A DNA stretch of 64,000 nt from Blumeriella jaapii (lineage: Eukaryota; Ascomycota; Leotiomycetes; Helotiales; Drepanopezizaceae). Below are positions 2,673 through 56,222 of the stretch, piece by piece. The DNA lies in NCBI GenBank assembly GCA_009599575.1, contig VWND01000045.1:1-64000 (forward strand). Direction: 5' to 3'. Made by a program: the position numbers and the translations under genes. Below the pieces are notes generated by a model. It was not told the DNA's origin. It made no database searches and saw only the letters and a list, made by a program, of their open reading frames with translations. Every line of letters starts with the position of its first letter. Position 1 is the first letter of the stretch.

Positions 2673-2705
2673 ATTAGCGTCGCTATCGAAATTAGCACCG
2701 CGAAT
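2673..2705 (-). repeat. 33-nt palindrome, D-minus copy
   Basis: Read on the minus strand: left arm ATTCGCGGTGCTA, 7-nt loop ATTTCGA, right arm TAGCGACGCTAAT. The arms pair over most of 13 positions, with the mismatch at arm position 8 shared by the family and one decayed pair. It lies between protease and RT, in the opposite orientation to the E copies relative to coding sense. Confidence 0.8.
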
Positions 2706-15230: not shown

Positions 15231-15263
15231 ATTCGCGATGCCTTTTTTGCTAACGACGCGAAT
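15231..15263. repeat. 33-nt palindrome in E1 extra ORF
   Basis: Arms ATTCGCGATGCCT and TAACGACGCGAAT around loop TTTTTGC (plus strand). On the coding strand the phase is A TTC GCG, giving a peptide of type FA-x5-A-S/P-R-I. Confidence 0.8.
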
Positions 15264-23530: not shown

Positions 23531-23535
23531 ATGGC

Positions 23536-25656: not shown

Positions 25657-25689
25657 ATTCGCGATGCTAACCGAAATAACAACGCGAAT
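25657..25689. repeat. 33-nt palindrome, E1 RNase H/integrase locus a
   Basis: Arms ATTCGCGATGCTA and TAACAACGCGAAT, loop ACCGAAA. Confidence 0.82.
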
Positions 25690-25719
25690 GCTTTTTCGGC
25701 CCGAAAATTAATGTTTTTT

Positions 25720-25752
25720 ATTCGCGGTACCAGCCGAAATAGCAACGCGAAT
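25720..25752. repeat. 33-nt palindrome, E1 RNase H/integrase locus b
   Basis: Arms ATTCGCGGTACCA and TAGCAACGCGAAT, loop GCCGAAA; only 30 nt from locus a and in the same orientation. Confidence 0.82.
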
Positions 25753-26382: not shown

Positions 26383-26499
26383 TTCTGTTTTAAATAATAT
26401 ACGTAATCGTTTTTGATTACGACCAAAAAAAAACATAATTTCAATAAGTGCAATCTAGTTTATTTTATATAATTTAAAAATCAATTAACCAAAACCCAA

Positions 26500-29400
26500 C
26501 TTTCTAATCCTATACTTTTTCGGTCTTCTAACCCGTTTTTAGCCTTTTTGCTATTAGCTTTTGCGAAAAAATAGCGTTTCGCTTATCGTTTAAATTATTT
26601 TGTTTATTTTGCTTTTTTAAAAAGTAATTCGATAAAATGTTAATCGAAGTATCGTTTAGATTTACGAACGTTTTAATAGCTTTTTCGTCGATAATATTAT
26701 TAGATGTCGCCGCTACGAATGCTTTTTACGACTTTTTTCCGTAAATAATAGATTTCAGCTTTTGAACGTGGTTCCACGCTTTGCAAAAAGCGTTAAAAAG
26801 TTTTGTATTAAAATCGTAAAAATAATCGATTAGTTCGTCGTAATTAAAACCGATTAACGCTTTTGCTTCGCGTAAAACTAATAGGTCGGATTACGGTTGT
26901 TTGCCGACGAATGCTTTTAAAAAAGTTCCGAAGCCTGTAAAAAAAACTATTTTACGAAATGATTCGAAAATAATCGTTTGCAATCGAAATTACCGAAAAT
27001 ATTATAATTGCTTTCGCCGCAGTATAAATAATATTAGATTGCCTATCGAATTGTCGTTTTCGAAATAGTTTTATATTTTTGCGCCGTATAATTATTCGAA
27101 TAAACCAGTATTGCGCCGTCGGTTTTTTGGGTTTTGAATTTAACGAAAACCTTTTGCTTAGTCGAAAAGCTAATAAAAATTATTTTATTTTTTATTTCGT
27201 AGCTTTCGGTTTCGTAGTCCGATAAAATAGCCGAGGCCATTGCTTTAAACGCGCTGAAATACGAGAAAACTGAGCTTTTTTAAATAATTTTAATTAGCTT
27301 AACGTCGTGGTATAATTGCAAATAAGCTTCGATTATTTCCGAATTGTATGCGAATACAGGCAGAACGTAATAATCGAAAATAGCGTCGGTAAGGTTTTCG
27401 ATTTTTTCTTTTTTTTGAAAATCGGCGATATCGAATTTTATAATTATAATACGGTCGAGGCCAGCGAAATTTAAAACGATCGGAACGTTAAAGTATATTA
27501 TAAAGCGGCAGTTTCCAAGATTTCGAATAATTAAAACAGCGAAGTAAAAGCCGGGGTGTATTTTAAAAGCTTGTTAAATAAAACTGTAAAGCATATTGGC
27601 GAAAAAAGCTGTAAGCGCTTTTTGGGTTTTAATTAATCGGAAATAATATTTGTATATAGCTATTTTTTTTTTATAAAATGCAATAATAGCTTATTTTTTC
27701 CGTTATAAGTATTTATATAATTAACGAATTCGCAGCTTAATTTAAGCAGATTTTAAAATATACTTTCGGTCGAAAAGCTAAAAAATCGGTTTTTAAGAAT
27801 ATTCGTTGCTTTTATTTTTTTACGTTTTAATCGAGCTTTATAATCGCGCTGAAAATCTTAGGATTTGTTTTAAAATTTGCGTAGCCTAAGTAAACTTTAA
27901 TATGCGCTTAGATAATTTTCGCAGTTTTTCGTCGGAATATAAATTGGTTATTAAAATTAATTTCGAATACGTCGTAATTCGAATTTCTGATAGCAGCGAA
28001 TCGATTAGCAAAGCCGACAACGTTAACTTTTTTTGTAATCAAATCGCAGTACGCCGCGTAATAGCGTATATAAAAATAGCAGAATTTGCCGTTTTTTTTG
28101 GCGTTAACGTTATTCGTAAAAACGAAATCAAAAAATCGGAATTTCTTAGCGAAAAAAAGTTCGAATAAAAACGGGTCACCGTTTTTAAAAATCTTTTTTA
28201 TTTGCTTTAGCGTATTATATTTGCAATTTTCCGAAAAAAGCTTAGTTTAGTTTTCGTTCGAAGCAAAAAGAAAAAAATTAACGGATTTATTTGTTTTTTA
28301 TATAAAAATATCGAAATAAAACTTTTAAATCGTTTCGTCGTCGAAAGCGAAAATTTTAAGCAGAATAATCTAATCTTATGCTTTTTGTATGATTTTTTCC
28401 GCGATAACTTCGATATTTTTTTTCAGGCTTTTTCGGTCGAAACGTATAATAATCGAGATTTTAAATGCTTTTATTAAAGTCTGGAATATTAGCGATAGCG
28501 GTATTACGTTTTTAAACGCGGCAAGCGTTTCTGGTATTTATATATTTAATTTCGAAAGATTAGATTCCGGGTCGTTTGAGTTTTTTCTTTTCGGAATGCC
28601 GGTGTTTTTTAAATCTGATTTCGTAAAATCGTCGCGTTTTTTGTTAATTAATTTAAAGCTTATAATTCGGCGTCGATTTCCGGCTGTTTTTATTCGCGAT
28701 GCCTTTTTTATTAGCGACGTGAATAGTTTTTTTTTTCGAACAAAAAAGGTTTCGGAAATGTCGGCGCGCTTTTTTACGTTTTTTGTTTTTATTTTTTCCG
28801 GAATTATATTTACAAATACAATAAGTTTTTTGTATTCGAATAAGCGGTTGTTTGTTATTACGCTTTTGGTTTCGTTTTCGGATTCGTTTTCGATAATTAA
28901 AAATAAAAATCGCCGAGTTGTTTTAGCTGTTTTAAAAATATTAATTGCTATTGCGTATGTTTTTCGAATTAAACGAAAATAATATTAGTTTTTTCGTTTT
29001 TTTCGTCGTCGTAAATTTAAAACGTCGGAATAGCGTCGTTTTTTTCGTTCGGTATAAAAATGCCGCATTTAGCGACGTTTAGTTTTTTGCTTTGAAAAAA
29101 AATCAGATTTAGAATTTCGCAACCGATTAGGATTTTTTTTAGCGATTATATAGCGTCGTCGATCAGTTTGCAGACAGCTGTAAAAAGGTTTATAAATCTG
29201 CGGGCTTTTGGATTGTTAGCTTTTAGGATTTGCGTTTTAAAAATATAAGCGTTTAGCATTTAAATTTCTTTTTTCGTAAGGGTAATAGTTTCGAAAAAGC
29301 AAGCGAAATGCCGAAATAAAATAATATTAATAATTTTGCTAAAAACGTATTTTTAAATATTTTTTTTTTATTAATTTAGCAAAAAGCGCAATATTCGGTC

Positions 29401-29880
29401 TGTTATTTTTTTTTTATTATTTCGAGCTTTTTTTGCTTCGGCGAAAACTTTTGAAGCGTTGTTATAATTTAGCAGGAATTTATCGTAATTAAAATTTTTG
29501 CAAACGAATTCAATTTTAACGAAACTTTCGTAATCGAATAAAAATTCGTTAACGTTTTTAATTATTATATCGAATTGTTTTATAAATGTTTTTACGAAAA
29601 CTGCTTATTAATTTAAAATGGCGGCATTATATATTTGTTTGAATTCGGAAAAGTTGCGTATAATAGTTCCGTTTCAGAATAGATTAAAAATAAATTTGCC
29701 AGGTTTGGCAACGCTTTGCTTAGGAAACGATATGATATCGATGGGTTTGTTATATTTATTAAAAAGTAGATGGAAAAAAGTACGGGGACTGTAGGGTATT
29801 TGTATCCAAAAGTTACGGGAATCCGCATGCTGTTTTTCTAATAAATTATGACTGTTTAGACAAGCATCCGTTCAGAACAG
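26500..29880 (-). pseudogene. E2 extra 3' ORF (unrecognised, most legible copy)
   Basis: About 1,100 codons on the minus strand, starting near 29880 (ATG not certain) and ending near 26500. Blocks in order: NKPIDIISFPKQ (29750), SEFKQIYNAAI (29630), EAKKARNNKKKI (29430), FINLFTAVCKLIDD (29180), RADISETFFVRKKK (28750), AGNRRRIISFKLINKKRDD (28650), ILLKIFAFDDETI (28350), GDPFLFELFF (28160), FCYFYIRYYAAYCDLI (28070), IKFDIADFQKKEKIENL (27415), SAILSDYETESYEIKNKI (27220), DGAILVYSNNYTAQ (27110), LREAKALIGFNYDELIDYF (26860). No family was recognised; it is not a readable chromodomain, envelope or RT. Broken by few stops relative to its length. Confidence 0.68.
28692..28724. repeat. 33-nt palindrome in E2 extra ORF
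   Basis: Arms ATTCGCGATGCCT and TAGCGACGTGAAT, loop TTTTTAT. Same site as in E1 (15231) and E3 (33809). Confidence 0.8.
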
Positions 29881-30290
29881 CGAAAAAAGTAAACAATGCA
29901 GAAAGTAGCAAATAATAAAATGCATAAAAAATAGTTTTCGTAAAATGTACGAATAATATAAATATATCAAATATGCGGCTCAAACATATATAAAGCTTTT
30001 GTTCTGATAAACAAAAATATAATTAAATAAAAAAAAGTATAGTAAATGTTTTAAATAATATAAAAAAAGTCTTAAAAATAAATAGTATATATAAAACAGA
30101 ATAATTAGATTATATACAAACAAAGCAAAACAAAAACAATAAAATAATATATAATAAAAAAAAAATAATAGACAAATAAAAACAGTAGAACAGTTAGTAA
30201 ACAATTTTGTAAGCACTTTTCTTTTTTTCGGTTATGGATGGAATTACGATTTGAATTATGCTTTTAGCGGGGTTATCGTTCGGCTGCTTC
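29881..30290. other. E2 spacer between integrase and extra ORF
   Basis: Low-complexity, A-rich on the plus strand. The minus-strand open stretch 29980-30216 is Phe/Leu/Tyr-rich because of T runs and is not conserved as protein in the other copies. Confidence 0.6.
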
Positions 30291-31235
30291 CAAACCTTTT
30301 CAGGGGGCTGGGCTTTTTTTTTTTCAGAAGTATAATCGCTTTGGTCGGAATCGTCGTCGGAATCGTTGGAATCGGAGTCGCTGTCTGAATCAAAGTTTAA
30401 AAAATAAATTTGCTGGTTTTTTTTGTAAAATCGCTTAACCGGTTGGCGGCGAACGTTTTTTTCAGTTTTGTTTTATCGAGTTTCGTAAGCTTATAATAGC
30501 TTTTATTCAATTCGGCCTCGTATATTTCGTAAAGTCCGAGCCATTTATAATTAAGTTTAATATCGGCCGATTTATTAATAGCGCGCTGAACGTCGTAAAC
30601 TAAAATCAAATCTTTTTTTCTGATTAGCGTTTTTTTTAAAATTTTAATTTTATTTCAGACTTTTTTAATTGCTTTTTTATTTTTTTTTTTTTTTAGAATT
30701 ATCTTTTTTATATTTATATCGCGGTAATTTAGCTGCTTAAATTTTATCGCTAATAAATTAGCTTTCGTTTTCATTTTGATTACGTTATAAAGCTTTTATA
30801 TAAGTCATTTTGTTTTCAAAGGCAGTCGAACGTTTTTGCCGTATTAAATAAAAAATGGGATTATTTTAGTAAGAGCGTATATATATATGCGTATAGCAAA
30901 AAGCATTTCCGAGAATTTCCGCGATTAACGCTTATAGCCTTTTCGAATGGCTTTTAAAAGGCCGTCGAAAATATTTTTATAGCTTCGTTTAACGGATTTA
31001 TTGCTTTTCGAATTATAAGCTAAAATTTAAATGCGTTAAATGCCGTATTTTTTTATAAAGATTTCGATAACGCTTTTATTTTCGGATTTATTATCGACGT
31101 TTAATTTGCTAAACAAACCGTGTCGATATATAACGTTTTTTAAAAAAAGGTCGCTATAGCTTCGGAGATAGCGTTTCGGAAAAATCGCTTTTCAAGCCAT
31201 TCAGATAGGTCGTTAATAGCGAATACGAAATATAT
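30290..31235 (-). pseudogene. pol: E2 integrase, C-terminal part
   Basis: The open stretch 30397-30609 reads LVYDVQRAINKSADIKLNYK, then WLGLYEIYEAELNKSYYKL and FAANRL, the GPY-type end of the integrase. It is followed by an acidic Ser/Asp-rich tail (30310-30400). Upstream, toward 31235, it runs into the integrase core and is cut by E3; it resumes at 42539. Confidence 0.85.
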
Positions 31236-31502
31236 TATAAAAGTAGGTAGAAAAACCAGACTGATACGGCCATATGTCGGTGGGTAAAATAGTCTAGGGA
31301 ATCCCTAGAAGAGACTGAAGAAAAGAAAAGAAAAATAAATAAAGGTATGAATTGGATTGCGTGCTTATGATATTATTTAAAGGGATGCTTTGCTTTTATA
31401 CCTATTGAAAGTAGTTAATAGCAAAGAGTTTCGAAAGGATTTATGCTTCGACTATAGCTAAAACTACCAACTTTTATTAATACAAAGTATTACCGTTTTA
31501 TA
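31236..31502 (-). repeat. 3' LTR of E3 (267 bp)
   Basis: Pairs with 42270-42534. The internal side is followed (plus strand) by TTTTGTTCCAAATAAT, whose complement is a weak polypurine candidate. Confidence 0.95.
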
Positions 31503-31629
31503 TTTTGTTCCAAATAATATACGTAATCGTTTTTGATTACGACCAAAAAAAAATATAATTTTAATAAGTTCAATTTAGTCTATCCTATATAATCTAAAAA
31601 TCAATTAATTAAAAACCGAACTTTTTAGC

Positions 31630-34600
31630 TTTATATTATTTCGGTTTTTTAATCCGTTTTTGGCCTTTTCGCTATTGGCTTTTGCGAAGGGATAGCGTTT
31701 CGCTTGTCGTTTGAATTATTTTGTTTATTCTGCTTTTTTGAAAAATAGCTCGATAAAATATTAGTCGAAGTATCGTTTAAACTTACGAACGTTCTGATAG
31801 CTTTTTCGTCGATAATATTATTAAGCGTCGCCGCGACAAATGCTTTTTACGATTTTTTTTCGTAAATAATAAATTTCAGTTTTTGTATATGATTCTACGT
31901 TTTGCAAAAAGCGCTAAAAAGTTTTGTATTAAAATCGTAAAAGTAATCGATTAGTTCGTCGTAATTAAAATCGATTAACGTTTTTGCTTCGCGCAAAACT
32001 AATAGATCGGATTACGGTTGTTTACCGACGAATGCTTTTAAAAAAGCTTCGAGGTTTGTAAAAAAGACTATTCCACGGAATAGTTCGGAAGTAATCGTTT
32101 GCAGTCGAAATTACCGAAGGTGTTATAATTGCTTTCGCCGCAGTACAAACAGTATCAGATTGCTTATCGGATTATCGTTTTCGAAATAGTTTTTGTACTT
32201 TTGCGCCGTGTAATTGTTCGAATAGATTAGCATCGCGCCGTCGGTTTTTTGGGTCCTGAATTTAACGAAAACTTTTTGCTTAGTCGAAAAGTTGACAAAG
32301 ATTATTTTATTTTTTATTTCGTAGCTTTCGGTCTCGTAATCCGATAAAATAGCCGAAGCTACTGTTTTAAACGCGTTAAAATACGAAAAAACTAGGCCTT
32401 TTTAAATGGTTTTAATTAGCTTGGCGTTGTAGTATGATTGTAAGTAAACTTCGATTATTTTCGAATTATATGCGAGTATAAGTAAAACGTGATAATCGAA
32501 AATAGCGTCGATAGGATTTTCGATTTTTTTCTTTTTTTAAAAATCGGCGATATCGAATTTTATAATTGTAATACGGTCGGGACTAATAAAACCTGGGGCG
32601 ATCGGAACGTCAGGGTATGCCACGAAGCGGCAGTTTTTAAAGTTCCGAGTAATCAAAGCAGCGAAGTAAAAGCCGGGATGTATTTTAAAAGCTTGTTAAA
32701 TAAAATTGTAAAATATATTAGCGAAAAAAGCTGTAAGCGCTTTTTGGGTTTTAACTAATCGAAAATAATGCTTGTATATAGCTACTTTTTTTTTTATAAA
32801 ATGCAGCAGTAGCTTGTTTTCTCCGTTGTAAAATCTTACGTGGTTAACGAATTCGCAGCTTAATTCAGGCAGATTTTAAAATACATTTTCGGTCGAAAAG
32901 CCAAAGAAATCGGCTTTTAGAAATATTCGTTGTTTTTACTTTTTTACGTTTCAATCGAGCTTTGTAATCGCGCTGAGAGTTTTAAAATCTGTTTTAAAAT
33001 TTGCGTAGCCTAAGTAAGTTTTCGCACGCGCTTGGGTAATTTTCGCAGTTTTTCGTCGGAATATAAATTAATTATTAAAATTAATTTCGAATACGTTGTA
33101 ATCCGAATTTCTGATGATAGCGAATCGATTAACGAAGCCGATAACGTTAACTTTTTTTATAATTAAATCGTAATACGCCGCGTAATAGCGTACGTGAAAA
33201 TGGCAGAATTTGCCGTTTTTTTTAGCGTTGATATTATTCGTAAAAACGAAATTAAAAAATCGGAGTTTTTTAACGAAAAAAAGCTCGAATAAAAACGGGT
33301 CACCGTTTTTAAAAGTTTTTTTTATTTGCTTTAATATATTATATTTGCAGTTTTCCGAAAAAAGCTTGGTTTAGTTTTCGTTCGAAGCAAAAGGAAAAAG
33401 CTGACGGATTCGCTTGGCTTTTATATAAAAATGTCGAAATAAAACTTCTAGATCGTTTCGTCGTCGAAAGCGAAAGTTTTAAACAAAGTAATTTGATTTT
33501 GTATTTTTTATATGATTTTTTCCGCGATAATTTCGATATTTTTTTCCAAATTTTTTCGGTCGAATCGTATAATAGTCGAAATTTTAAATGCTTTTATTAA
33601 AATTTAAAATATTGGCGGTACGACGTTTTTAAACGCAGCAGGCGTTTTTGATATTTGCGTATTTAGTTTCGAAAGGTTAGATTTAAAATCGTTTGAGTTT
33701 TTTTTTTTCGGAATGCCGGTGTTTTTCGAATCTGATTTCGTAGAATCGTCGTTTTTTTTATTAATTGGCTTAAAAGCTATAGCTCGGCGTCGATTTCCGG
33801 CTGTTTTTATTCGCGGTGCCTTTTTTGCTGGCGACGCGAATAATTTTTTTTTCCGAACAAAAAAGGTTTCGGAAATGTCGGCGCGCTTTTTTACGTTTTT
33901 TATTTTTATTTTTTCCGGGAACGTTTTTATAAGTATAATAAGCTTTTTGTATTCGAATAGACGGTTGTTTGCTGTTACGCTTTTGGTTTCGTTTTTTAAT
34001 TCGTTTTCGACAGTTGAAAATAAAAATCGCTGAATTGTTTTAGCTGTTTTAAAAGTATTAATTGCTACCGCGTATGTTTTTTCGAACTGAACGAAAATAA
34101 TATTAGCTTTTTCGTTTTTTTTATCGTCGTAAATTTAAAATGTCGAAATAGCGTTGTTTTTTTTTTTCGGTATAAAAATGCCGCATTTAGCGATATTCAG
34201 TTTTTTGCTTTAAAAAAAAGTCAGATTTAAAATTTCGCAACCGATTAAAACTTTTTTTAGCGATTGTATAACGTCGTCGATTAGTTTGCAGACGGCTGTA
34301 AAAAGGCTTATAAATCTGCGGGCCTTTAGATTGTTGGCTTTTAGAGTTTGCGCTTTTAAAATATAAGCGTTTAATACCCAGACTTTTTTTTTAATAAAGG
34401 TAATAATTTCGAAAAAGCGAGCGAAATGCCGAAATGGAATAATACCGGTGATTTTGCTAAAAACGTATTTTTAAATATCTTTTTTTCGTTGATTTAGCAA
34501 AAAGCGTAATATTCGGTCTGTTATTTTTTTTTGTTATTTCGAGTTTTTTTTGCTTCGGCGAAAATTTTTAAAACGTTATCGTAATTCAGCAGAAATTTTT

Positions 34601-34990
34601 CGTAGTTAAAGCTTTTACGAACGAATTCAGTTTTAACGAAGCTTTCGTAATCGAATAAAAATTCGTTAACGTTTTTAATTATTATATCGAATTGTTTTAT
34701 AAATGTTTTTACGAAAGCTGCTTATTAATTTAGGATAGCGGTATTGTATATTTATTTGAATTCGGAAAGATTGCGTATAATAGTTTCGTTTTAAAATAAG
34801 TTAAAAATAAGCTTGCCAGGTTTAGCAACGTTTTGTTTAAAAAACGATATAATATCGATAGGTTTGTTAATTAAAAAAATATGTTGTGTTTATTAAAAAA
34901 TAAATAAAAAAAAGTACGAAAATTATAAAGTATTTGTATTTAAAAGCTACGGGAATCCGCATGCTGTTTTTTTAATAAATTATAACTGTT
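31630..34990 (-). pseudogene. E3 extra 3' ORF (unrecognised)
   Basis: Same ORF as in E2, about 3.36 kb. Its reading frame restores several residues lost in E2, for example GFYFAALITRNFKNCRFVAY near 32620-32680 and LLHFIKKKVAIYKHYFRL near 32760-32815. The C-terminal end reads NDKRNAIPSQKPIAKRPK near 31670-31710, a basic tail. Function is unknown to me; its presence in all three E copies in the same place shows it belongs to the element. Confidence 0.67.
33809..33841. repeat. 33-nt palindrome in E3 extra ORF
   Basis: Arms ATTCGCGGTGCCT and TGGCGACGCGAAT, loop TTTTTGC; the least mutated copy at this site. Confidence 0.82.
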
Positions 34991-35420
34991 CAAATAAGCA
35001 TTCGTTTAAAACAACGAAAAAAATAAATAATGCAGAAAATAGCAAATAATGAAATGCATAAAAGATAGTTTTCGTAAAATATACGAATAATACAAATGTA
35101 TTAAATATGCGGTTTAAAACATATACAAAGCTTTTGTTCTGATAAACAAAAATACAGTTAAACAAAAAAAAGTATAATAAGTGTTTTAAATAATATAAAA
35201 AAAGGTTTTAAAAATAAACAGTGTATATGAAACAAAATAATTAGGTTGTATACAAACAAAGCAAAATAAAAACAATAAAATAGTATATAATAAAAAAGAA
35301 AAACAATAGATAATAAAAAACAATAGAATAGTTAGTGAACAATCTTGTATATATCTTTTTTTTCCTCGGTTATAGGTGGAATCACGATTTGAATTATGCT
35401 TTTAGCGAGGTTATCGTTCG
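34991..35420. other. E3 spacer between integrase and extra ORF
   Basis: A/T-rich low-complexity stretch, no gene supported. The acidic integrase tail ends at its right border. Confidence 0.6.
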
Positions 35421-36800
35421 GCTGCTTTCAAACCTTTCCAGAGGGTTTCTTTTTTTTAAAAATATAATCGCTTTGATCGGAATCGTCGTCGGATTCGCTG
35501 GAATCGGGGTCGCTGTTTAATTTAAAATCCAAAGGATAGATTTGCTGATTTCTTTTATAAAATCGTTTTAACCGGTTGGCGGCGAACGTTCTTTTCAGTT
35601 TTGTTTTATCGAGTTTCGTAAGCTTGTAATAGCTTTTATTTAATTCGGCTTCGTATATTTCGTAAGGTCCGAACTATTTATAATTAAGCTTAGTGTCGGC
35701 CGATTTGTTAATAGCGCGCTAGACGTCGTAAATTAGAACCAGATTTCCTTTTTTGATTGACGTTTTTTTAAAAACTTTGGTTCTATCTCAAATTTTTTTA
35801 ATTGCTTTCCTATATTTTTTTTTTTTTAAAATTATTTTTTTTATATTTATATCGCGGTAATCTAGCTGTTTAAATCTTATTGCCAGCAGGTCAGCTTTCG
35901 TTTTTATTTTAATCACGTTATAAAGCTTTTATACAGGCCATTTTGTTTTTAAAAGCAATCGAGCGTTTTTACCGTATTAAATAAAAAATAAAATTATTTT
36001 AATAAAAGCGTATATACACGTGCGTATAACAAAAAGCATTTCCGAGAATTTCCGCGACCAACGCTTATAGCCTTTTCGAATAGCTTTTAAAAGGCCGTCG
36101 AAAATATTTTTATAGCTTCGTTTAACGAATCCGTTGCTTTTCGAATTATAAGCTAAGATTTAAATGCGCTGAATATTATATTTTTTTGTAAAAGTTTCGA
36201 TAACGCTTTTGTTTTCGGGTTTATTATCGACGTTTAATTTATTAAATAAACCGTGTCGATATACAACGTTTTTCTAAAAAAAAGTCGCTATAGCTTCGAA
36301 AATAGCGTTTCGGAAAGGTTTTTTTTCAGGCTATTTAAACAAATCGTCGATAACGAATACGAAGCACGTATGCTTGCGGTCGGTGGTCGGTACGCGTGTA
36401 ACGTCGAGATTGATTTTTTTTCAGATTTTAAAAAACTACGTCGGATATAATAAGTTTTTTTTTCGATTAAGCTTTCGTTTTTAATAAAAAATGCAGCTTT
36501 TGACGAAGATTTTGCAGTTTTCGAAGCATTTTTTTCTATCAGAAATCGTTTTTGGTTCGGTGATAAGTAGCTTCAGCTTTTTTATAGAATATTTTTTCGT
36601 AAGCTTTTTTTATAATTTGAAACTTGTCGGCTTTGTTATTTATTATTAAGCGTTTTTGGTATATATTGTTTTTTATTTTGTATAGCTTTCTGTCGGCTAA
36701 AATATAATTAAAAGCTTGGTTTTTAAATAATTTAAACTAATGGTTTGGTATATTAAATGGTTTCGATAAAATGGTTAGATAGTATGCGATTGAATAAAAA
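35420..36800 (-). pseudogene. pol: E3 integrase
   Basis: Minus strand. The zinc-binding region near 36530-36640 includes ADKFQIIKKAYEK and AEATYHRTKND. The core spans roughly 35900-36450 and is broken by frame slips in A/T runs. The C-terminal part includes LNYK, then GPYEIYEAELNKSYYKL (near 35620-35690), FAANRLKRFYKR (35560-35595) and a tail SDPDSSESDDDSDQSDY (35465-35515). The GPY box is intact here. No chromodomain is seen. Confidence 0.83.
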
Positions 36801-36878
36801 TCTTCGGTTTCGTAGTTATCGATCAAAAGTTTATTTTCGTCGTTAATCGGCTTATTTCGATCGTTTTCGGTTAAATTT

Positions 36879-36911
36879 ATTTGCGATGCCAGCCGAAATA
36901 ATGACGCGAAT
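36879..36911. repeat. 33-nt palindrome, E3 RNase H/integrase locus a
   Basis: Arms ATTTGCGATGCCA and TAATGACGCGAAT, loop GCCGAAA. Confidence 0.82.
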
Positions 36912-36941
36912 GCTTTTTCGGCCCGAGAATTAGTGTTTTTC

Positions 36942-36974
36942 ACTCGCGGTGCTAGCCGAAATAGCAACGCGAAT
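36942..36974. repeat. 33-nt palindrome, E3 RNase H/integrase locus b
   Basis: Arms ACTCGCGGTGCTA and TAGCAACGCGAAT, loop GCCGAAA. Coding-strand peptide FALLFRLAPRV. Confidence 0.84.
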
Positions 36975-38887
36975 GGTTTTGGCTTTATAAAATCCAAAGC
37001 GTAAATAACGAAGCAGCCGATTTCGTTAGCAATTTATTCGTTAATATTTTATTCGTTTGTTTAGCGAAATCAAACGAATAAAAGCGTTTTCGTTTCGAAA
37101 GGCCGTTTGCCGTTGTATTAATTGTTTTTTTGATATGTTTAATTTCGAAATTTATAAATCGTATTTAAATTATTTAATTAATAACGAATGCTTTTGGCAG
37201 ATTATTGGTTTTTTTATTCAGTTGGTCGATAAAAACTTTTGCGTTTGTTTTTAAAATAAAATATACGTCGTACAATTCGCTTTTTATTTTTTTTATTACT
37301 TTGAAAGCGCTTCGATATTTTCGTTTGGTAGCATCGTAGCGTATTTCCGCAAAGGATTATAAACCGCTTTCGAATCGTGAAAAATGCCGTTTTTTGTTTT
37401 TATCGATTTGTTATAATACAGCTTTTTAACCGAAAATATTAGCGTCGATAGTTAAAATGATTTTTTCTGCGTTTAGGCTGTAATCGATTCGCATAAATAA
37501 TAAAATCGATAAAAAATCGTTTTTAAAGATTTTTATAGCTTTGTTTTGTTTTTTTTTTTAAACGAAATCGATTTTTTTTTTTATCGTAGCGTAAATGGAT
37601 GCGGCTTTTTGAAAAAAGTTTTTAATTCAATTGCGATAATAAATCATAACGCTAATAAAAGTTTTGGCTTCGGTAATATTTTTATACTTTTTTTATTCGC
37701 AGATTTTTTTAATTTTTTTTCGTTAAGGATAGCGGCCAACGCTGTTAATTATATAACCGACGATATTTATTTCGGATATACAGAATTTTAATCGAAGGCT
37801 AATAATAGCTTTGGCTTTTTCGAAGCAAATTATAATTTTGTCGATGTTTTGGATATGTTTTATTATATAGCGTCGAATTTTAAAAAAAAAATTTTTATTA
37901 TTATAATATAATTTGAAGCTTTTTATTCCGACGTCGTTAACGTAAAGCAGAGCAATATTAGAAATGCAAATTATAAGAATTTTGTATACGATTTTCACGA
38001 ATTAAACGATTAAATTAATGGCTCTTATAAGTATTCTGGTTATACGTAATAAACCGATTGGAATTTGAATTGCTGTTATATTTCGAGATCGTGGATTAAA
38101 TATTAAATAGTCGTAGCCGGAAAACAGGTCGAAAAGAAAAGCGATTGTTAATTTTGCGAATTCGTTCGAAAATTGATCGACGTTGGATAGCACGTTAGCG
38201 TTTCGTATCGTTATTTTGTTTATTTCGACGATTGCGATAATAAATTTGTAAATGTTTTTTTTTTTTTTCGCAACGATAAATTATTTGTTTTTGTATAAGC
38301 CGTGGCAGAATTCGAAGATTTTTTGCTTAATTCGTTTTTTTAGCATTTCGATTATTTTATTTTAAAAGGTTTTGGGAATTGAAAAGGTTTTTTTTTGCCA
38401 AGCTTCGTACGATATAATTTTAATATCGATATAAAACGTAACGTTAAAGCTGAATTAGTTTATTTCGGTGAAATCGAAAGTTATAATTTTTTCCCGGTTG
38501 CGTAAAACTTCGTACAAAACCTTTTTTTTTTTTGGCAAAAATTAAATTCCGATTGCTAAATTATCAAATCGTTTTTTTGTAAATCGGCTGTCAAATAATA
38601 AGCTGGAAAATCGGCCGGTGATAAGTCCTTCGAGTTCGTTAGTAATTGATTAAAATGGTTTTGTTGTTTTATTTTTTTTAAATTAATCGTTTATTTTTTT
38701 AGAAATATTTCCATCGGATTCGCCAAGATTTACGAATCGTATTTTATTAGCTTTGCGCTTATAAAAAGTGCTAATATTAATACAAAAAAGTAGAATATGT
38801 AAATCGGATTTGTTTAATACGAAAACGAAATCTTCGGAATTTTTATTTTCGAATTAATAGCCGAAAATATTAATATTAGCCAATTTT

Positions 38888-38920
38888 ATTCGCGATGCCA
38901 TTTCGATTAATAACGCGAAT
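38888..38920. repeat. 33-nt palindrome, E3 protease/RT locus
   Basis: Arms ATTCGCGATGCCA and TAATAACGCGAAT, loop TTTCGAT. Coding-strand peptide FALLIEMASRI. Confidence 0.84.
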
Positions 38921-38929
38921 GCTTTTGAC

Positions 38930-40250
38930 TAAGTATTTTCCAAGTTTTATTATAACTCAGCGTTTGTTTTAAAACTAGAGCCGGCTATTCGTTTTTCGAT
39001 AAAACGTCGATTAAAAAGACTTTGTCGCCGGCGACGATGATTTGATTTTAAAAAAACCGGTTCCAGTTTTAGAAAAAGGTTTTTATTTGGCCGTTTTCGG
39101 TGTATTTGAAGCTGACGAGATTTTCTAAGATTCAGGGTATTTTAAAAATAATAAAATAGAAGTATTTTTTTATTATTAAAAAGTTTTTATAAATAATAAT
39201 ATTTTTAACGTCGATTTTTATATTTCGTACAATTTTATTAAATTTAATAATATTTTTATTAACGGTGATATAAATTATTCGTTTGTTAATAATAATCGGA
39301 ACATTATTGGTTTCGGCTGTTTTCTGGTTTATATAATTGATTTCGGTTTTATTATCGAATAAAACGAAAGCTGTCGTGCTTTTTTTAAGTATTGTTTTTA
39401 TTTTTAACGCTTTTATAGCCGTGTAAAAATAATTTCGTCGTTTTGACTTTTGGGTTTTTATAGCGAAAACTAAAAGGCTGATTTTTTCCGAGGATTTTTT
39501 TTTATCGGCTAAATTAACTGCGGTGTTGTAAATTTCTTTTTGGTTTTTTTTCAATTTAAAATCGTTTTTTTTTCGGGTAATTTCAATTTTTTCGTTTTTT
39601 TTTAATGTAAGAATTTGTTTATTAATAACTTTGTCGAATTTTTTTTTTGTGCTAAATAAATCGCTGAATTTCAATTTAATTTTTTGTTTTATAATTTTTT
39701 TAATAGCTTTGTCGACGGCTTCGGAGCTAATATATTTGTCGATTTATTTTTCGCTTCGCATTAATAGTAAACGTTTAAAAGCTGATATTTTCTGAATAAT
39801 TTAAACCGGAGTATCGGTATCGATATTTTTTATATCGTCGTTAATTTCTTTTATTATAAGCGTTTTTCTAATAGTTTTATCGGTTTTTTTTCGAATTCCA
39901 AAATCTTTTTTCTTTTCGATTTTAACGTTTTTTTTCATACCAGTTGGTTTGGCGAATAGAACAGAAGCATTTTGCTTTTTTATAATTCGCTGGCTTGATT
40001 ATGCAGCCATAATATCTGCAGATGCGATACTTGCATTGGTAATATATATATTTGTCCTCCATTTATATATTTAAATTTTATTTATATTTAGAATAAGGGA
40101 TTTTTTTTTAATTAGTACGCTTTCGGAGATATTTTCTTTTTTACTAATGAAAATCGTTTTCGCATCCTTTTTATTTTCTAAGCAATCGTTTTATTTCGTA
40201 CTTTTTATTTTTAAGCGAATGGTATTTAACCAGCTTTGGTTTTCAGCTTT
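38930..40250 (-). pseudogene. pol: E3 protease and preceding linker
   Basis: The open stretch 39132-39674 holds the aspartic protease. Its active-site box reads VLFDNKTEINYI (39340-39375), a D-N-G-T type site in which Gly became Lys; E1 keeps ALFDNGTEINCI. Before it lies a 200-codon Lys/Glu-rich linker (SSEAVDKAIKKIIKQKIKLK near 39690-39745). After it KYTENGQIK and KIKSSSPATKSF lead to the palindrome and RT. Confidence 0.8.
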
Positions 40251-42190
40251 GTTAAAAAAACTTATTTCTGTTTCCGTCGGTCCGAAGCAGATCGCTTCGT
40301 ATTTATTAATATAGCAGATATTATTATTTATACAGAAATTAAATGCTTTGCATTTTGAGCGAATATAAGGTTTTTCGCAATAAATTTTTTTGTTATTACA
40401 GAATCTATACTTGGGGCCACGGGGTCTTTTTTAATAATTACCTTTACCGTTTTAATAGCCGCGATTTTGGTTTCCGCGTTGGTTTCTTTTTTTTTTTTAA
40501 TAATCGTTATTATAATTAGTGTTTCGCTGATTTTGATCGCTAATACGAGAAGATTGCTATTAGGCAGCTATTACTTTTACGGTGGCTTGGCGAGGCTGAT
40601 CGCTTCGAATATTTTAAAAGGAGTAGTTATTATACGAGCTATTTTAATCGTTTTTATTATCTGAATTAACGTAAAGGAATTTTTTCTGCTGCTGTATAAA
40701 ACTTTCGATTTTGTTTTAAAGTTTTTAAATTTTGATATCGGTAAATTTTAATACGAAAGTTTCGATATTTTTGTTAAGTTTTTCCAAGCTTGTAGATTTT
40801 GCAAAACGATTAAATAATATAATAACCGGTTGTTTTTTAGCGATTTCGGTAACTTTTAATAGCTAGACATATTCCTGCATTAGAGCTTCCACGTTTTTTT
40901 TGTAAATAAAAAAGAGCGATTTCTTTTGGTTTATAACTTCGATAATACGTTCGCTTTGGTTTTGTTTAAAAACGAATTTCATAAATTTGAAATATTGATC
41001 GAAGGTTTCAGGGTTTTGTTTATTAATTTTAAAATGCTTAATGGTTTTATTGCGAATATTAATTGAAAGGCTAAATAAAAACAATTTTTTTTGTTTAATT
41101 TCGCTTAAAATCTTTTTGTTAACGAAAACGTTAAAAACTTTCGTATAAGTACGACAATAGGTCTTAAATTTTTTAGCTTAGCGAATAGTTATAACAAATT
41201 GTTTAAGAAAAGCGATAATATCGCGAATTTGCTAACGATCGTAGTTTCGGAATTCCGATTTCAAAGCTTTAACTAGCTTACGCTAGTTTCGAGTTTTAAT
41301 AGCTTTCCATTTATTTATCGATTTAATAATATTTTTAATGGTTGGGTTATAGTAGCGAAGGAGTTTATCGAATATTTTAATTTCAGAGATTTCGAAATTC
41401 TTATAGGTTTTTTTATATTTCTCGATGAAATCGGTAACGTTGGCGCCACTGAATAAGAATGTATTAAGGGAGCCAGGAAGAAGCATGCGGCCTCGCATAA
41501 GAAAACGAAAAGCGTCGTTGTCTATAGTATTAGCGAAAGTATTAGTAGGGTTTAAATTAAATAAATAAGTGTTTTCTGAAATTGCAGATTAAAAGTTTTC
41601 AGCGTAAAAGAAATCGTTTTTAATAAAAGAGCTATTAAAAAAGTTTTTGTGTTTTCTAAAGGAATTAAATAAAATAAGGTTGCGTTTAAATATTTGGATA
41701 GCGTATTAAAGAATTTGTTTTTTAATAAGTTGATTGGATTGATATAATATTATTATATAATTTACGGTTTCGATATTCCGTGGCTTAGGCTAATGCACGT
41801 ACAGCCATTTTTTTACTATTTTTAATAAGAAGCCGCAAATTGTAATTGCCATAATTACAAAGCGTAAGATCAGAAGGTTGAGTTTTCGCCAGGCGTTTGA
41901 CCAAAAAAGATTTAGTTCAGAAGGGCCGAGCGCAGCGGTCGAAGCGTACGAATTAATATTCGATTTGTTATTTTTAAATAAAAAAGCGATTTTCGAGCTT
42001 TGAATTTCGCACGGTTTAAGATTGCCTGATCGTAATTTCAGACGTTTCTAAAATGTGTTGCATTTTTGTAGTTTAATAACTGTGCGTAAAATAAGGGAAG
42101 CTATTAAGGGTTTTTTATATAATACAGCTGCGAATAATATTATATAAGAAGTTTTTTAAGCCGTAATGGCGAAATATCGAAGTCGATTTT
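40251..42190 (-). pseudogene. gag: E3 gag with Cys-rich C-terminus
   Basis: Starting from the 5' end: a region near 41790-42060 with the hydrophobic stretch LLILRFVIMAITICGFLL, then the capsid part with FSGANVTDFIEKYKK at 41400-41445, the core block of fungal Ty3/gypsy gag, and FKQNQSERIIEVINQKK near 40940. A Gln/Asn/Arg-rich linker follows (40440-40760). The Cys-rich block 40300-40420 reads FCNNKKIYCEKPY and then SKCKAFNFCINNNIC: spacing C-x6-C-x8-C-x5-C-x5-C, not a CCHC knuckle. The protein seems to continue into the protease in one frame. Confidence 0.78.
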
Positions 42191-42251
42191 GATTATGAAT
42201 TTGAGAAATGCATCGGCGAATATATAAAAACGAAATATCGAAGTTTGAATT

Positions 42252-42267
42252 TTTGCGTAGATTATTA
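42252..42267 (-). promoter_or_regulatory. Primer-binding site of E3 (RIP-mutated)
   Basis: Counterpart of the better-kept E2 site at 48415-48430. Two bases separate it from the LTR. The TGG has become TAA. Confidence 0.6.
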
Positions 42268-42269
42268 AA

Positions 42270-42534
42270 TATAAATAGATAGAAAAACCAAATTGATACG
42301 GCCATATATCGGTAGGTAAAATAATCTAGGGAATTCTTAAAAGAGACTGAAGAAAGGAAAAGAAGAATAAATAAAGGTATAAATTGGACTGCGTGCTTAT
42401 AGTATTATTTAAAAGGATGCTTTGCTTTTATATCTGTTGAAGGTAGTTAATAGCAGGGGGTCTCGGAGGGGTCCATGCCTCGACCATAGCTAAAACTACC
42501 AACTCCCATTAATACAAGGTATCACCGTTTTACA
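42270..42534 (-). repeat. 5' LTR of E3 (265 bp) with TATA box
   Basis: Ends TTTTACA on the plus strand with CA intact. A perfect TATAAAAG lies on the minus strand at 42425-42432 within a conserved block, the likely Pol II promoter driving leftward transcription into gag. Confidence 0.93.
42425..42432 (-). promoter_or_regulatory. LTR TATA box of E3
   Basis: TATAAAAG on the minus strand inside the 5' LTR; the same sequence recurs in the LTRs of E1 and E2. Confidence 0.5.
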
Positions 42535-42538
42535 ATAT

Positions 42539-43100
42539 ATAACCGCGGTCGGTGGTTAATACGCGTGTAACGTCGAAATTAATTTTTTTTCAGATTTTAG
42601 AAGATTACGTAAAATATAATAGGTTTTTTTTTCGGCCAGGCTTTCGTTTTTAATAAAAAATGCAATTTTTAACAAAAGCTTTATAATCTTCGAAATATTT
42701 TTTTTATTAAAAGTCGTTTTTGATTCGGTGATAAATGGCTTTAGCTTTTTTATAAAACACTTTTTCGTAGGTTTTTTTTATAATTTGAAACTTATCGGCT
42801 TTATTGTTTATTATTAAGCGTTTTTAATATATATTGTTTTTTATTTTGTATAACTTTTTATCGGCTAAAATATAATCGAAAGCCTGGTTTTTAAATAATT
42901 TAAACTGATAGTTTGATACGTTAAATAGTTTGGACAAAATAGCTAGGTAATATGCGATTAAATAAAAATCTTCGGTTTTGTAATTATCGATTAAAAGTTT
43001 ATTTTCGTCGTTAGTCGGCTTATTCCGATCGTTTTCGGTTAAATTTATTCGCGGTGCTAGCCGAAATAATAACGCGAATGCTTTTTCGGCCCGAAAATTA
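42539..43100 (-). pseudogene. pol: E2 integrase, N-terminal part
   Basis: Continues 30290-31235 on the other side of E3. It carries the zinc region (near 42700-42780) and the stretch LLIDNYKTEDFYLIAYYL near 42930-42985, which precedes the zinc region in all E copies. The open stretch runs 42824-43135. Confidence 0.82.
43047..43079. repeat. 33-nt palindrome, E2 RNase H/integrase locus a
   Basis: Arms ATTCGCGGTGCTA and TAATAACGCGAAT, loop GCCGAAA. Confidence 0.84.
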
Positions 43101-43109
43101 ATGTTTTTT

Positions 43110-43142
43110 ATTCGCGGTACCAGCCGAAATGGCAACGCGAAT
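43110..43142. repeat. 33-nt palindrome, E2 RNase H/integrase locus b
   Basis: Arms ATTCGCGGTACCA and TGGCAACGCGAAT, loop GCCGAAA. Confidence 0.83.
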
Positions 43143-44930
43143 GGTTTTAGTTTTATAAAATCTAGGGCGCAAATAGCGAAGCAGCCGATTTCGTTAATAA
43201 TTTATTCGTCGATGTTTTGTTCGTTTTATTTAGCGAAATCAAACGAATAAAAACGTTTTCGTTTAAAAAGGCCGTTTGCCGCTGTATTAATTATTTTTTT
43301 AATATGCCTGATTTCGAAGTTTATAAATCGTATTTAAGTTATTTAATTAATAACGAGCGCTTTTAATAAATCGCTAGTTTTTTTATTTAATTAATCGATA
43401 AAAACTTTTGCGTTTGTTTTTAAAATAAAATATACGCTGTATAATTCGCTTTTTATTTTTTTATCGCTTTGAAAGCGCTTCGATATTTTCGTTTAATAGC
43501 ATCGTAGCGTGTTTTCGCGGAGAATTATAAGCCGTTTTCGAATCGTAAAAAATGTCGTTTTTTGTTTTTATCGATTTGTTGCAATATAGTTTTTTAGCCG
43601 AAAATATTGGCGTCGACGGTTAAAATAATTTTTTTTGCGTTTAGGCTGTAGTCGATTCGTATAAATAATAGAGCCGATAAAAGGTCGTTTTTAAAGATTT
43701 TTATAATTTTGTTCTGTTTTTTTTCCTAAACGAAATCGATTTTTTTTTTTATCGTAGCGTAAATAAATGCAGCTTTTTGAAAAAAGTTTTTAATTTAATT
43801 ACGATAATAAATCACAACGTTAATAAAAGCTTTGGTTTCGGTGATATTTTTATACTTTTTTTATTCGCAGATTTTTTTAATTTTTTTTCGTTAAAAATAG
43901 CGGCTAGCGCTGTTAATTATATAATTAACGATATTTATTTCGGATATGCAAAATTTTGATCGAAAGCTAATAATAGCTTTGGCTTTTTCGAAACAAATTA
44001 TAATTTTGTCGATGTTTTAAATATATTTTATTATATAGCGTCGAATTTTAGAAAAAATCTTTTTATTATTATAATATAATCTAAAGTTTTTTATTTCAAC
44101 GTCGTTAACGTAAAAAGGCAATATCAGAAATGCAGATTATAAAAACTTTGTATACGACTTTTACAAATTAAGCGATTAAATTAATAGCTTTTATAAATAT
44201 TTTCGTTATACGTAATAAACCGATTGGAATTTGAATTGCCGTTATGTTTCGAAATCGTAGGTTAAGTATTAAATGGTCGTAGCCGAAAAATAAATCGAAA
44301 AAAAAAACGATCGTTAGTTTTGCGAATTCGTTTAAAAATTAATCGACGTTGGATAGCACGTTGGCGTTTCGTATTATTATTTTATTTATTTCGACGATTG
44401 CGGTAATAAGTTTATAAATGCTTTTTTTTTTTTTCGCAACGATAAATTATTTGTTTTTATATAGGCCGTAGCAAAATTCGAAGATTTTTTGCTTAATTCG
44501 TTTTTTTAGCATTTCGATTATTTTATTTTAAAAGGCTCTAGAAATTAAAAAGGTTTTTTTTTGCCAGGCTTCGTAAAATACGGTTTTAATATCGATATAA
44601 AACGTAATATCAAAGCTGAATTGATTTATTTCGGTAAAATCGAAAGCTATAGTTTTTTTTCGGTTGCGTAGGATTTCGTATAAAACTTTTTTCTTTTTTG
44701 GCAAAAATTGGGTTTCGATTATTAAATTATCAAATCGTTTTTTTGTAAGTCGGCTGTTAAATAATAAATTAGAAAATCGATCGGTGATAAGTTTTTTAAA
44801 TTCGCCAGTAACGGATTAAAATGGTTTTATTGCTTCGTTTTTTTCGAACTAATCGTTTATTTTTCCGGAAATATTTTCACCGGATTCGCTAAGATTTACG
44901 GATCGTATTTTATTAGTTTTGCGTTTGTAA
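43143..44930 (-). pseudogene. pol: E2 reverse transcriptase and RNase H
   Basis: Same layout as in E3. RNase H lies at about 43150-43620 and RT at 43780-44900. Just before the catalytic box (about 44100-44120) E2 has lost two bases relative to E3 (GCTCTGCTTTACG against GCCTTTTTACG), so RT is frameshifted at the active site itself, besides its stop codons. Confidence 0.87.
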
Positions 44931-45053
44931 AAAATGCTGATATTAATATAAAAAAGTAGGGTATATAGGTTTGGTTTGTTTAATACGAAAACGAAATCTT
45001 CGGAATTTTCATTTTCGAATTAATAGCTAAAAATATTAATATTAGCCAATTTT

Positions 45054-45086
45054 ATTCGCGATGCTATTTCGATTAGTAACGCGAAT
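45054..45086. repeat. 33-nt palindrome, E2 protease/RT locus
   Basis: Arms ATTCGCGATGCTA and TAGTAACGCGAAT, loop TTTCGAT. Confidence 0.84.
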
Positions 45087-45099
45087 GCTTTTGGCTGAT

Positions 45100-46420
45100 T
45101 ATTTTCCAGGTTTTGTTATAGCTCAGCGTTTATTTTAAAACCAAAGTCGGCTATTCGTTTTCCGATAAAACGTCGATTAGGAAAATCTTATCGCCGGCGA
45201 CGGTGATTTAATTTTGAAAGAATCGGTTTTAGTTTCAGAAAAAGATTTTTATTTGGCCGTTTTCGGTATATTTAAAGCTGACGAAACTTTCTAGAATTTA
45301 GAACATTTCAAAAATAATAAAATAGAAATATTTTTTTATTATTAAAAAATCTTTATAAGTAATAATACTTTCAACGTCGACTTTTATATTTCGTATAATT
45401 TTATTAAATTTAATAATGTTTTTATTAACGATAATATAAATTATTCGTTTGTTAATAATAATCGGAATATTATTAGCTTCGGCTGTTTTCTGGTTTATAT
45501 AATTGATTTCGGTTTTATTATCGAATAAAGCGAGGGTTGTCGTATTTTTTTTAAATATTGTTTTTATTTTTGGCGCTTTTATAGCCGTGTAAAAATAGTT
45601 TCGTCGTTTTGATTTTTAGGTTTTTATAGCGAGAGCTAAAAAATTGATTTTTCCGAGGATTTTTTTTTATCGGCTAAATTAATTACGGTGTTATAAATTT
45701 TTTTTTGATTTTTTTTTAATTTAAAATCGTTTTTTTTTCGAATGATTTTAATTTTTTCGTTTTTTTTTAATATAAAAATTTGTTTGTTAATAATTTTGTC
45801 GAATCTTTTTTTTATGTTAAATAAATCGCTGAATTTCAATTTAATTTTTTGTTTTATAATTTTTTTAATAACTTCGTCGACGGCTTCGGAGCTGATATAT
45901 TTATCGATTTATTTCTCGCTTCGCATTAGTAGTAGGCGCTTAAAAGCTGGTACTTTTTGAATAATTTGAATCGGAATATCGGTATCGATATTTTTTATAT
46001 CGTTGTTAATTTTTTCTATTATAAGCGTTTTTTTAATGGTTTTATCGGTTTTTTTTCGAATTCCGAAATCTTTTTTTTTTTTAATTTTGACGTTTTTTTT
46101 TATATCAGTTAGTTTGGCGAATAAAACAGAAGCATTTTGCTTTTTTATAATTCGCTGGCTTAATTATGCAGCTATAATATTTGCAAATATAATATTTGCA
46201 TTGGTAATATATATATTTGTTTTTTATTTATATATTTAAATTTTATTTATATTTAAAATAAAGGTTTTTTTTTTGATTAATATATTTTTTGGGATATTTT
46301 CTTTTTTATTAATAAAAATCGTTTTTGCATTTTTTTTGTTTTCTAAACAATCGTCCTATTTCGTACTTTTCATTTTTAAGCGAATAGTGTTTAATCAGCT
46401 TTAATTTTTAGCTTTATTAA
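45100..46420 (-). pseudogene. pol: E2 protease and linker
   Basis: The linker KKNEKIKIIRKKNDFKLKKN lies near 45730-45790 (open stretch 45636-45839). The protease follows toward 45300 with the Asp box near 45520. It corresponds to E3 38930-40250 and is more broken. Confidence 0.77.
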
Positions 46421-48350
46421 AAGAGTTTATTTCTGCTTCCGTCGGTCCGAAGCAAATCGCTTCGTATTTATTAATATAGCAAATACTATTATTTACACAA
46501 AAATTAAATGCTTTGCATTTAAAGCGAATATAAGATTTTTCGCAGTAAATTTTTTTGTTATTACAAAATTTATATTTAAGGCCACGGGATTTATTTTAAT
46601 AATTACTTTTACTATTTTAGTAATTGCGATTTTGGTTTCCGCGTTGGTTTTTTTCTTTTTTTTGATAATCGTTATTATAATTAATATTTCGCTGATCTTG
46701 ATCGCTAGCACAGGGAAATTGCTATTAGGCAGCTATTACTTTTACGATGGCTTGGCGAGGCTGATCGCTTCGAGCATTTTAAAAGGAATAATTATTGTAA
46801 AAGCCATTTTAATCGTTTTTATTATTTAATTAACGTAAAGAAGTTTTTTCTGCTATTGCATAAAACCTTCGATTTTGTTTTAAAGTTTTTAAATTTTAAT
46901 ATCGGTAAATTTTAATACGAGAGTTTCGATATTTTTGTTAAGCTTTTCTAAGCTTATAAGTTTTGCGAAACGATTAAACGGTATAATAACTAATTGTTTT
47001 TTGGCGATTTCGGTAATTTTTAATAGTTGGGCATATTTTTGTATTAAAGCTTTTACGTTCTTTTTGTAAGTGGAAAAAGGAGATTTCTTTTGGTTTATAG
47101 CTTTAATAATACGTTCGCTTTGGTTTTGTTTAAAAACGAATTTTACAAATTTAAAATATTAATCGAAGGTTTTAAGATTTTATTTATCAATTTTAAAATA
47201 TTTAATAATTTTGTTACGAATGCTGGTTGAAAAGCCAAATAAAAACAATTTTTTCTGCTTTATTTCGCTTAAAACCTTTTTGTTAACGAAAACGTTAAAA
47301 ACTTTCGTATAAATACGATAATAAGCTTTGAGTTTTTTGGCTTAGCGAATTATTATAACAAACTGTTTGAAAAAAGCGATGGTATCGCGAATTTACTAAC
47401 GATCGTGGTTTCGGAATTCCGATTTCAAAGCTTTAACTAGCTTACGCCAGTTTCGAGCCTTAATAGCTTTTTATTTATTTATCGATTTAATAATATTTTT
47501 GGTAGTTAAATTATAATAACGAAAAAATTTATCGAATATTTCGGTTTTAAAAACTCCGAAATCTTTACAGGTTTTTTTATATTTCTCGATAAAATCGGTA
47601 ATATTAGCGCTATTAAATAAGAATGCATCAGAGGAGCCAGAAAGAGGCATGCGGCCTCGTATAAAAAAGCGAAAAGCGTCGTTATTTATAATATTAATAA
47701 AAGTGTTGGTAGGATTTGAATTAAATAAATAAGTGTTTTTTGAAATTGCAAATTAAAGGTTTTTAATATAAAAGAAATCGTTTTTAATAAAAAGCTATTA
47801 AAAAGGTTTTCGTGTTTTCTAAAGGAATTAAATAAAATAAGATTGCGTTCAGATATTTGAATAGCATATCGAAGAATTTGTTTTTTGGTAGATTAACTGG
47901 ATTAATATAATATTGCTATATAATCTACGGTTTCGATATTTCGTGGCTTAGGCTAATGTACGTATAGCCATTTTTTTATTACTTTTAATAAAAAGCCGCA
48001 AATTGTAATTGCTATAATTACGAAGCGTAAAATCAGGAGATTGAGTTTTTGCCAGGCGTTTGACCAAAAGAGATTTAATTTAAAAAGGCCGAGCGCAGCG
48101 GTCGAAGCGTATAAATCAATATTCGATTTATTATTTTTAGATAAAAAAGCGATTTTCGTGCTTTGAATTTCGTACGGTTCAGAATTGCCTGACCGTAATT
48201 TCAAACGTTTCTGAAATATATTGCACTTTTGTAATTTAATAATTATGCGCAAAATAAAAGAAGCTATTAAAGGTCTTTTATATAATACAACTGCGAATAA
48301 TATTATATAAAAGATTTTTTAAGCCGTAGTAGCGAAATATCGAAGTCGAT
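46421..48350 (-). pseudogene. gag: E2 gag
   Basis: The 99-codon open stretch 47953-48252 at the 5' side includes YASTAALGLFKLNLFWSNA and the hydrophobic LLILRFVIIAITICGFLL. The capsid core lies near 47560-47650, and the Cys-rich block at 46470-46580 has the same spacing as in E3. The first codon of the open stretch is TTG and it stays open upstream, so this is not a proven start. Confidence 0.75.
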
Positions 48351-48414
48351 TTTAATTGTGAATTTGAAAAATGCATCGGCGAATATATGAAAACGAAACA
48401 CCGAAGTTTGAATT

Positions 48415-48430: not shown

Positions 48431-48432
48431 AA

Positions 48433-48697: not shown

Positions 48698-48701
48698 ATA
48701 T

Positions 48702-50254: not shown

Positions 50255-50287
50255 ATTCGCGATGCTATTTCGATTAGCGACGTAAAT
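50255..50287. repeat. 33-nt palindrome, E1 protease/RT locus
   Basis: Arms ATTCGCGATGCTA and TAGCGACGTAAAT, loop TTTCGAT; one CG of the right arm is RIP-changed. Confidence 0.8.
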
Positions 50288-50299
50288 GCTTTTAGCCGA

Positions 50300-56189: not shown

Positions 56190-56222
56190 ATTCGCGGTGC
56201 TAATTTCGATAGCGATGCCAGT
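56190..56222 (+). repeat. 33-nt palindrome, D-plus copy
   Basis: Left arm ATTCGCGGTGCTA and loop ATTTCGA identical to D-minus; right arm TAGCGATGCCAGT has diverged. Confidence 0.7.

Follow-up and report, generated by a model that had tools for sequence, protein, structure and literature searches.

A 33-nucleotide palindrome shared by coding stretches of two retrotransposon families of Blumeriella jaapii

A stretch of 64 kb of Blumeriella jaapii DNA (here called the window) carries two neighboring 33-nt palindromes inside a retrotransposon, and closely similar palindromes recur elsewhere in the same element and in a second retrotransposon family. This raises the question of how one short unit came to lie at unrelated places in coding sequence. 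A sequence-only reading had proposed a tiny mobile or copied palindrome that spreads through genes without breaking their frames. We examined its structure, its distribution and the accounts that could explain it.

The palindrome and its host elements in the window

The window was searched with the pattern ATTCGCGRTGCYA-N7-TRGCRACGCGAAT, allowing up to three mismatches. This gave 19 strand-wise matches, corresponding to 14 places, and none in 100 dinucleotide-shuffled controls. A further search returned these 14 places again. The twins T1 and T2 of E3 are two of these places (Table 1). The description given by the sequence-only reading was borne out: each of the three nested 11.3-kb E elements has four sites and each of the two D copies has one, all 14 are 33 nt long with a 7-nt loop, the majority sequences of the five site types (P, T1, T2, X and D) all show the mismatch at position 8 (opposite position 26), and the D palindrome has the opposite orientation relative to the D coding strand. 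The T1 and T2 loops are identical.

An unbiased palindrome scan of the window, requiring at least 11 of 13 pairs with at least five of these G-C, gave eight matches at six sites, every one belonging to the 33-nt family. First-order Markov controls (n = 20) reached 0 to 7 matches each, so the number of palindromes in the window is by itself not unusual. The observation of shared 33-nt palindromes is real and unusual.

Table 1. Positions in the window of the palindromes and of features of the E3 element
Feature	Positions	Strand	Basis and context
Palindrome T1 in E3	36879..36911	+	pattern match; downstream of RNase H, E codes on -
Palindrome T2 in E3	36942..36974	+	pattern match; 63 nt from T1, T1 loop
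Palindrome P in E3	38888..38920	+	pattern match; protease/RT linker
Palindrome X in E3	33809..33841	+	pattern match; extra ORF
Palindrome T1 in E2	43047..43079	+	pattern match
Palindrome T2 in E2	43110..43142	+	pattern match
Palindrome P in E2	45054..45086	+	pattern match
Palindrome X in E2	28692..28724	+	pattern match
Palindrome T1 in E1	25657..25689	+	pattern match
Palindrome T2 in E1	25720..25752	+	pattern match
Palindrome P in E1	50255..50287	+	pattern match
Palindrome X in E1	15231..15263	+	pattern match
D palindrome, first D copy	2673..2705	-	pattern match; D codes on - here; weak below-cut-off protease match upstream
D palindrome, second D copy	56190..56222	+	pattern match; D codes on + here; upstream of RT (RVT_1 match)
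E3, full-length E element	31232..42538	-	LTR pair 31237-31500 / 42269-42532
RNase H match in E3	37207..37467	-	RT_RNaseH, E 2.7e-7; coordinates derived from residues

The E array (12381-53902) reads as an ordinary nested insertion, which would explain the partial copies: E3, whose LTR stretches agree to 86% over 264 nt, is placed inside E2 (26112-31230 and 42538-48700), which lies inside E1 (12381-26112 and 48700-53902). The window has about 27% GC and no ORF of 200 aa with an ATG, GTG or TTG start, its longest stop-to-stop frames being 202 and 203 aa. Over the approximately 5.2 kb compared, the three E copies differ by 635 to 688 transitions versus 16 to 21 transversions. TpA/ApT is 1.04, against 0.35 to 0.69 in three GC-rich loci of this genome, and CpG observed/expected is 3.28, against 0.92 to 1.10 in those loci. 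This excess of transitions and these dinucleotide values indicate that the window is strongly RIP-like. CG was changed in 9% of the E-copy comparisons versus 21 to 49% for the seven other dinucleotides counted; RIP-like decay here spares CpG, and the CG-rich arms therefore look more conserved than they are. The arms are also present in the less damaged loci L006 (34% GC) and L019 (37% GC).

Comparison of the site types showed that the arms are identical, in register, at 19 to 24 of 26 positions, the loops at 0 to 4 of 7 (except for the 7 of 7 shared by T1 and T2), and the 30-nt flanks at 7 to 17 of 30. Similarity between sites drops to the level of the flanks outside the arms, and the length of the unit is 33 nt. 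When the majority sequences are coded as purines and pyrimidines, 2 of 26 arm columns differ versus 4 of 7 loop columns, and as much difference as in the loop was held by 99 of 100,000 random sets of seven columns. The majority sequences thus have a constrained stem and a free loop, a pattern to be read with the CpG-sparing RIP in mind. P and D have in common an 8-mer across the loop, ATCGAAAT, and six of six bases of one near flank. Some weak blastn matches fall outside the palindrome too and are taken for T-rich chance.

The relationship between the two families was explored by BLASTP. Pieces of the D and E reverse transcriptases, both RIP-damaged, have no detectable similarity (best E 0.84), and neither do the RIP-damaged D piece and the intact protein P0002 (best E 3.8). 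P0002 is the one relative found for the E reverse transcriptase, at 34% identity; no relatives of P0002 were found in viral contigs. Given this lack of detectable similarity, vertical inheritance of a neutral 33-mer is unlikely. Near-identical arms in two families, with dissimilar flanks, on opposite strands and in different frames, point to a unit copied as DNA, as had been supposed.

Reading frames and RNA folding

The twin sites had been placed between RNase H and integrase. The RNase H upstream was confirmed, but the RIP-damaged stretch on the other side gave no integrase match. Two of the E sites are described here as downstream of RNase H, the others being in the protease/RT linker and the extra ORF. 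The D palindrome lies upstream of RT; its position downstream of a protease comes from a weak, below-cut-off RVP_2 match. The D RT match is in a different frame from the D palindrome. The E extra ORF (33604-34134) has no Pfam match above the cut-off, and no protein relatives with E up to 1 were found for it (84 candidates) or for the twin-site ORF (3 candidates).

To establish the frame at each site, stops were counted over approximately 630 nt around it and the frame with the fewest was taken. For all four E sites this is phase 1 of the reverse strand, with 8.1 stops for T1 and for T2 (15 copies each) and 8.6 for P (33 copies), other frames having 12 to 22, and with 3.7 stops for X (22 copies), other frames having 5.2 to 19.5. 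For D it is phase 0 of the forward strand, with 7.9 stops versus 11.9 to 17.9 (ten rows, one of which is T1). The claim that the E copies share one phase is upheld by these counts, which agree in strand and phase at every E site. The lowest-stop frame is also open through the palindrome at all five site types, so that the unit is compatible with the reading frame and leaves it unbroken, as the sequence-only reading had stated. Four frames are open through the palindrome in nearly all copies. In two copies (38888-39743; L019 363-1738), a -1 difference in frame separates the E ORF on the protease side from the one with the P palindrome, perhaps a programmed frameshift.

RNA folding of one copy per site gave a hairpin for T2 (-13.8 kcal/mol, z -2.58) and X (-12.4 kcal/mol, z -2.67), weak ones for D (z -1.36) and P (z -1.19), and none for T1 (z 0.28). 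Pairing is limited to the outer 7 bp in T1 and P, whose majority inner stems are weakened by an extra mismatch at position 10 and by wobble pairs. The uneven folding makes it doubtful that the full hairpin is continuously needed at each site. A Rfam scan of 31000-43600 gave no match at the gathering score; a single sub-threshold match, MIR171_2 (22 bits versus 65), overlaps the twin sites.

Genome-wide distribution and filled sites

The genome (47.4 Mb in 91 contigs) was searched with several patterns and their backwards controls. The strict palindrome pattern gave 183 matches (control 0); of the 100 matches listed, almost all carry the T loop, and all eight that were opened proved to be T2. 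With a second pattern, 89 places were found, mostly with the P loop (control 0). A third gave 267 matches on one strand and 264 on the other (2 in each control), which among those listed are mostly single X places counted on both strands. The D-site pattern, with up to two mismatches, gave 637 places (control 0). Copies thus number in the hundreds, and those traced sit at the same five E and D sites. Among the places read, none was shown to lie outside D and E.

Patterns avoiding the known loops and flanks were used to look for new contexts. Loops other than the known ones gave 31 places versus 1 in the backwards control, and a non-T base upstream gave 5 versus 0, all five of which were opened and are E. 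G/C three bases upstream gave 8 places versus 3, and G/C four bases downstream gave 5 versus 5. The eight G/C-upstream places comprise two shared with the non-T five, two opened GC-rich loci (63% and 56% GC) and the rest, judged by their letters, as were the matches of the other-loop and G/C-downstream patterns. No new context was confirmed by these patterns, the places read being E sites or GC-rich chance matches. One palindrome-like match, at C65:670340-670368, differs in its loop and in its mismatch and fits no known site. The retroelement-only distribution is the one seen by patterns that require largely intact arms.

Single arms were searched for as well, giving 167 matches (backwards control 0), against approximately 8 expected by hand calculation at equal base frequencies. 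Among the 100 matches listed, 96 read as X in reverse and 4 do not. A parent transposon with free single arms was therefore set aside, nearly all listed arms being the X site, with a few free arms possible. Exact matches to the palindrome numbered zero in viral contigs and zero in a collection of prokaryote genomes, both sets possibly leaving out records near the genome of the window.

Empty sites were looked for in both families. From 1,540 first-look candidates, 78 E RT copies were scored, and in 28 of these a strict P palindrome lies no more than 420 nt from where it is expected. The other 50 could have been an empty E subfamily; this idea was dropped, as the seven of them examined, the window copy at 50255 and six fetched copies, are filled, with bases changed. 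The P site is thus filled in all 35 copies examined of the 78, with no empty site among them, and all three E copies of the window carry all four sites. P0002 was discarded as an empty-site comparison because its alignment begins after the P palindrome. For D, a gap pattern for empty sites had no matches genome-wide; by its flank words, 7 of 9 true D sites carry both at the filled distance. No site was thus seen both with and without the unit, as an insertion might leave it, among the E and D copies examined. Neither a clear target-site duplication nor a presence/absence difference was found at the palindromes. A GSTTTT-like flank on one side is common to the E sites and absent in D.

The lack of empty sites among the copies examined suggests that the palindrome most likely predates the bursts of both E and D. 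A currently mobile, genome-wide palindrome element is not supported, and the proposal that the palindrome spreads through genes was not sustained in this genome: among the places read, no palindrome was shown to lie outside these two families, and the part examined for empty sites held none.

Accounts of origin and known systems

The account that we tentatively favor is that an inverted-repeat unit was copied between retroelements before their bursts and was then passively multiplied and exposed to RIP, with arms kept and spacer free. Two 13-nt arms with a 7-nt spacer would have been copied into parts of the E coding sequence that are linkers or poorly conserved (the protease/RT linker, the stretch downstream of RNase H and the extra ORF), with a local second copy giving rise to the twins, and a single inverted copy would have entered the distantly related D, upstream of RT. 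Copies that left the frame intact would have survived, and later spread would have been passive, via retrotransposition of E and D, with RIP afterwards. Since the arms are the same and the spacers are not, the arms, as hairpin stem or as two half-sites, would have mattered for copying or function. We infer the insertion itself and likewise the mode of copying, which may have been a template switch at the hairpin, from one co-packaged RNA to another, during reverse transcription; this would explain why the palindrome is seen only in retroelements. Besides the lack of empty sites and of a clear target-site duplication, two observations fit this account poorly: recent copying of the whole unit predicts matching loops, and a full match exists only between T1 and T2; random insertion does not predict the shared strand and phase at the four E sites.

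That shared strand would be expected of a selected cis-acting site, in which the arms are half-sites or an RNA hairpin for a putative element or host protein (in packaging, integration or transcription) and the spacers drift. The constant arms and free spacer, the 8/26 mismatch in all five site types and the folds of T2 and X are likewise consistent with it. We consider this possible but not probable, given that T1 and P pair on the outer 7 bp only, the D fold is weak, D is on the opposite strand with one arm transversion, and the Rfam overlap at the twins is far below threshold. Moreover, 26 positions is a large number to match by convergence, and copying seems needed anyway. Rather unlikely, too, is that the 33-nt repeat is a hairpin parasite of retrotransposons, copied only within LTR-element RNA or cDNA during reverse transcription, between distant co-packaged elements, with frames kept and never directly into host genes.

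The similar peptides read at the four E sites in shared strand and phase could also mean that a repeated motif F-A-x-x-x-x-x-A-P-R was kept for protein function, with palindromy as a by-product. This is improbable: in D the unit is read from the opposite strand and gives another peptide, which largely refutes the motif and speaks against descent of all hits from one ancestral protein repeat; third codon positions are common to the sites too; and the arms pair with each other. Least probable of all is a putative tyrosine recombinase site formerly acting on E and D, for although the 13-7-13 layout with free spacer resembles loxP- or FRT-type sites, the spacers differ by site type, spacer identity could pair T1 with T2 only, and the E array looks like ordinary nesting.

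Short palindromes of several kinds offer comparisons for the copied unit. Bacterial REP sequences are linked to RAYT transposases. They are palindromes of 20 to 40 bp in many copies (PMC3733652), as here, but are extragenic and prokaryotic. The likeness to Rickettsia palindromic elements (RPE) suggested by the sequence-only reading holds for behavior, as both are palindromic DNA in ORFs with the frame intact, and for nothing beyond it. RPE measure 100 to 150 bp and occur in many unrelated genes (PMC3767692, PMC10969869), whereas the unit here has 33 nt and was traced to two retrotransposon families only; presence in many unrelated host genes was not seen among the places opened or read.

Yeast mitochondrial GC clusters (GC42; PMC4478555) resemble the unit in being short palindromes in AT-rich DNA with a constrained stem, a freer loop and suspected RNA-mediated copying; they differ in being mitochondrial and for the most part intergenic, and in having sites that are present in some cases and absent in others, as well as AG target nucleotides, none of which was seen here. 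The inverted repeats of Nematomorpha mitochondria share the location in coding sequence, but are perfect, up to 284 bp long and not one repeated unit (PMC6649704). PARCELs, protein-coding repeats with dyad symmetry and a mobile-element link in some taxa, differ in being 25-residue tandem repeats (PMC2996958). No such unit in nuclear retrotransposons was recognised among the open-licence papers listed by our literature searches.

Rickettsia and organelles already provide examples of frame-compatible intragenic palindromes. The sharing of a much shorter one by two distant LTR families would mean that very small hairpin modules can pass between retroelements, and template switching at hairpins could then be tested directly as a route to coding insertions. 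The results also carry a warning, that CpG-sparing RIP can inflate the apparent conservation of CG-rich motifs.

Some minor observations concern the surroundings of the palindromes. In the E copy at C17:481670 (L080 1500-1540), another repeat starts right after the P palindrome. Element A reads as inserted in E1 and also in D. In D, a long poly-T tract of variable length follows the palindrome (56223-56320).
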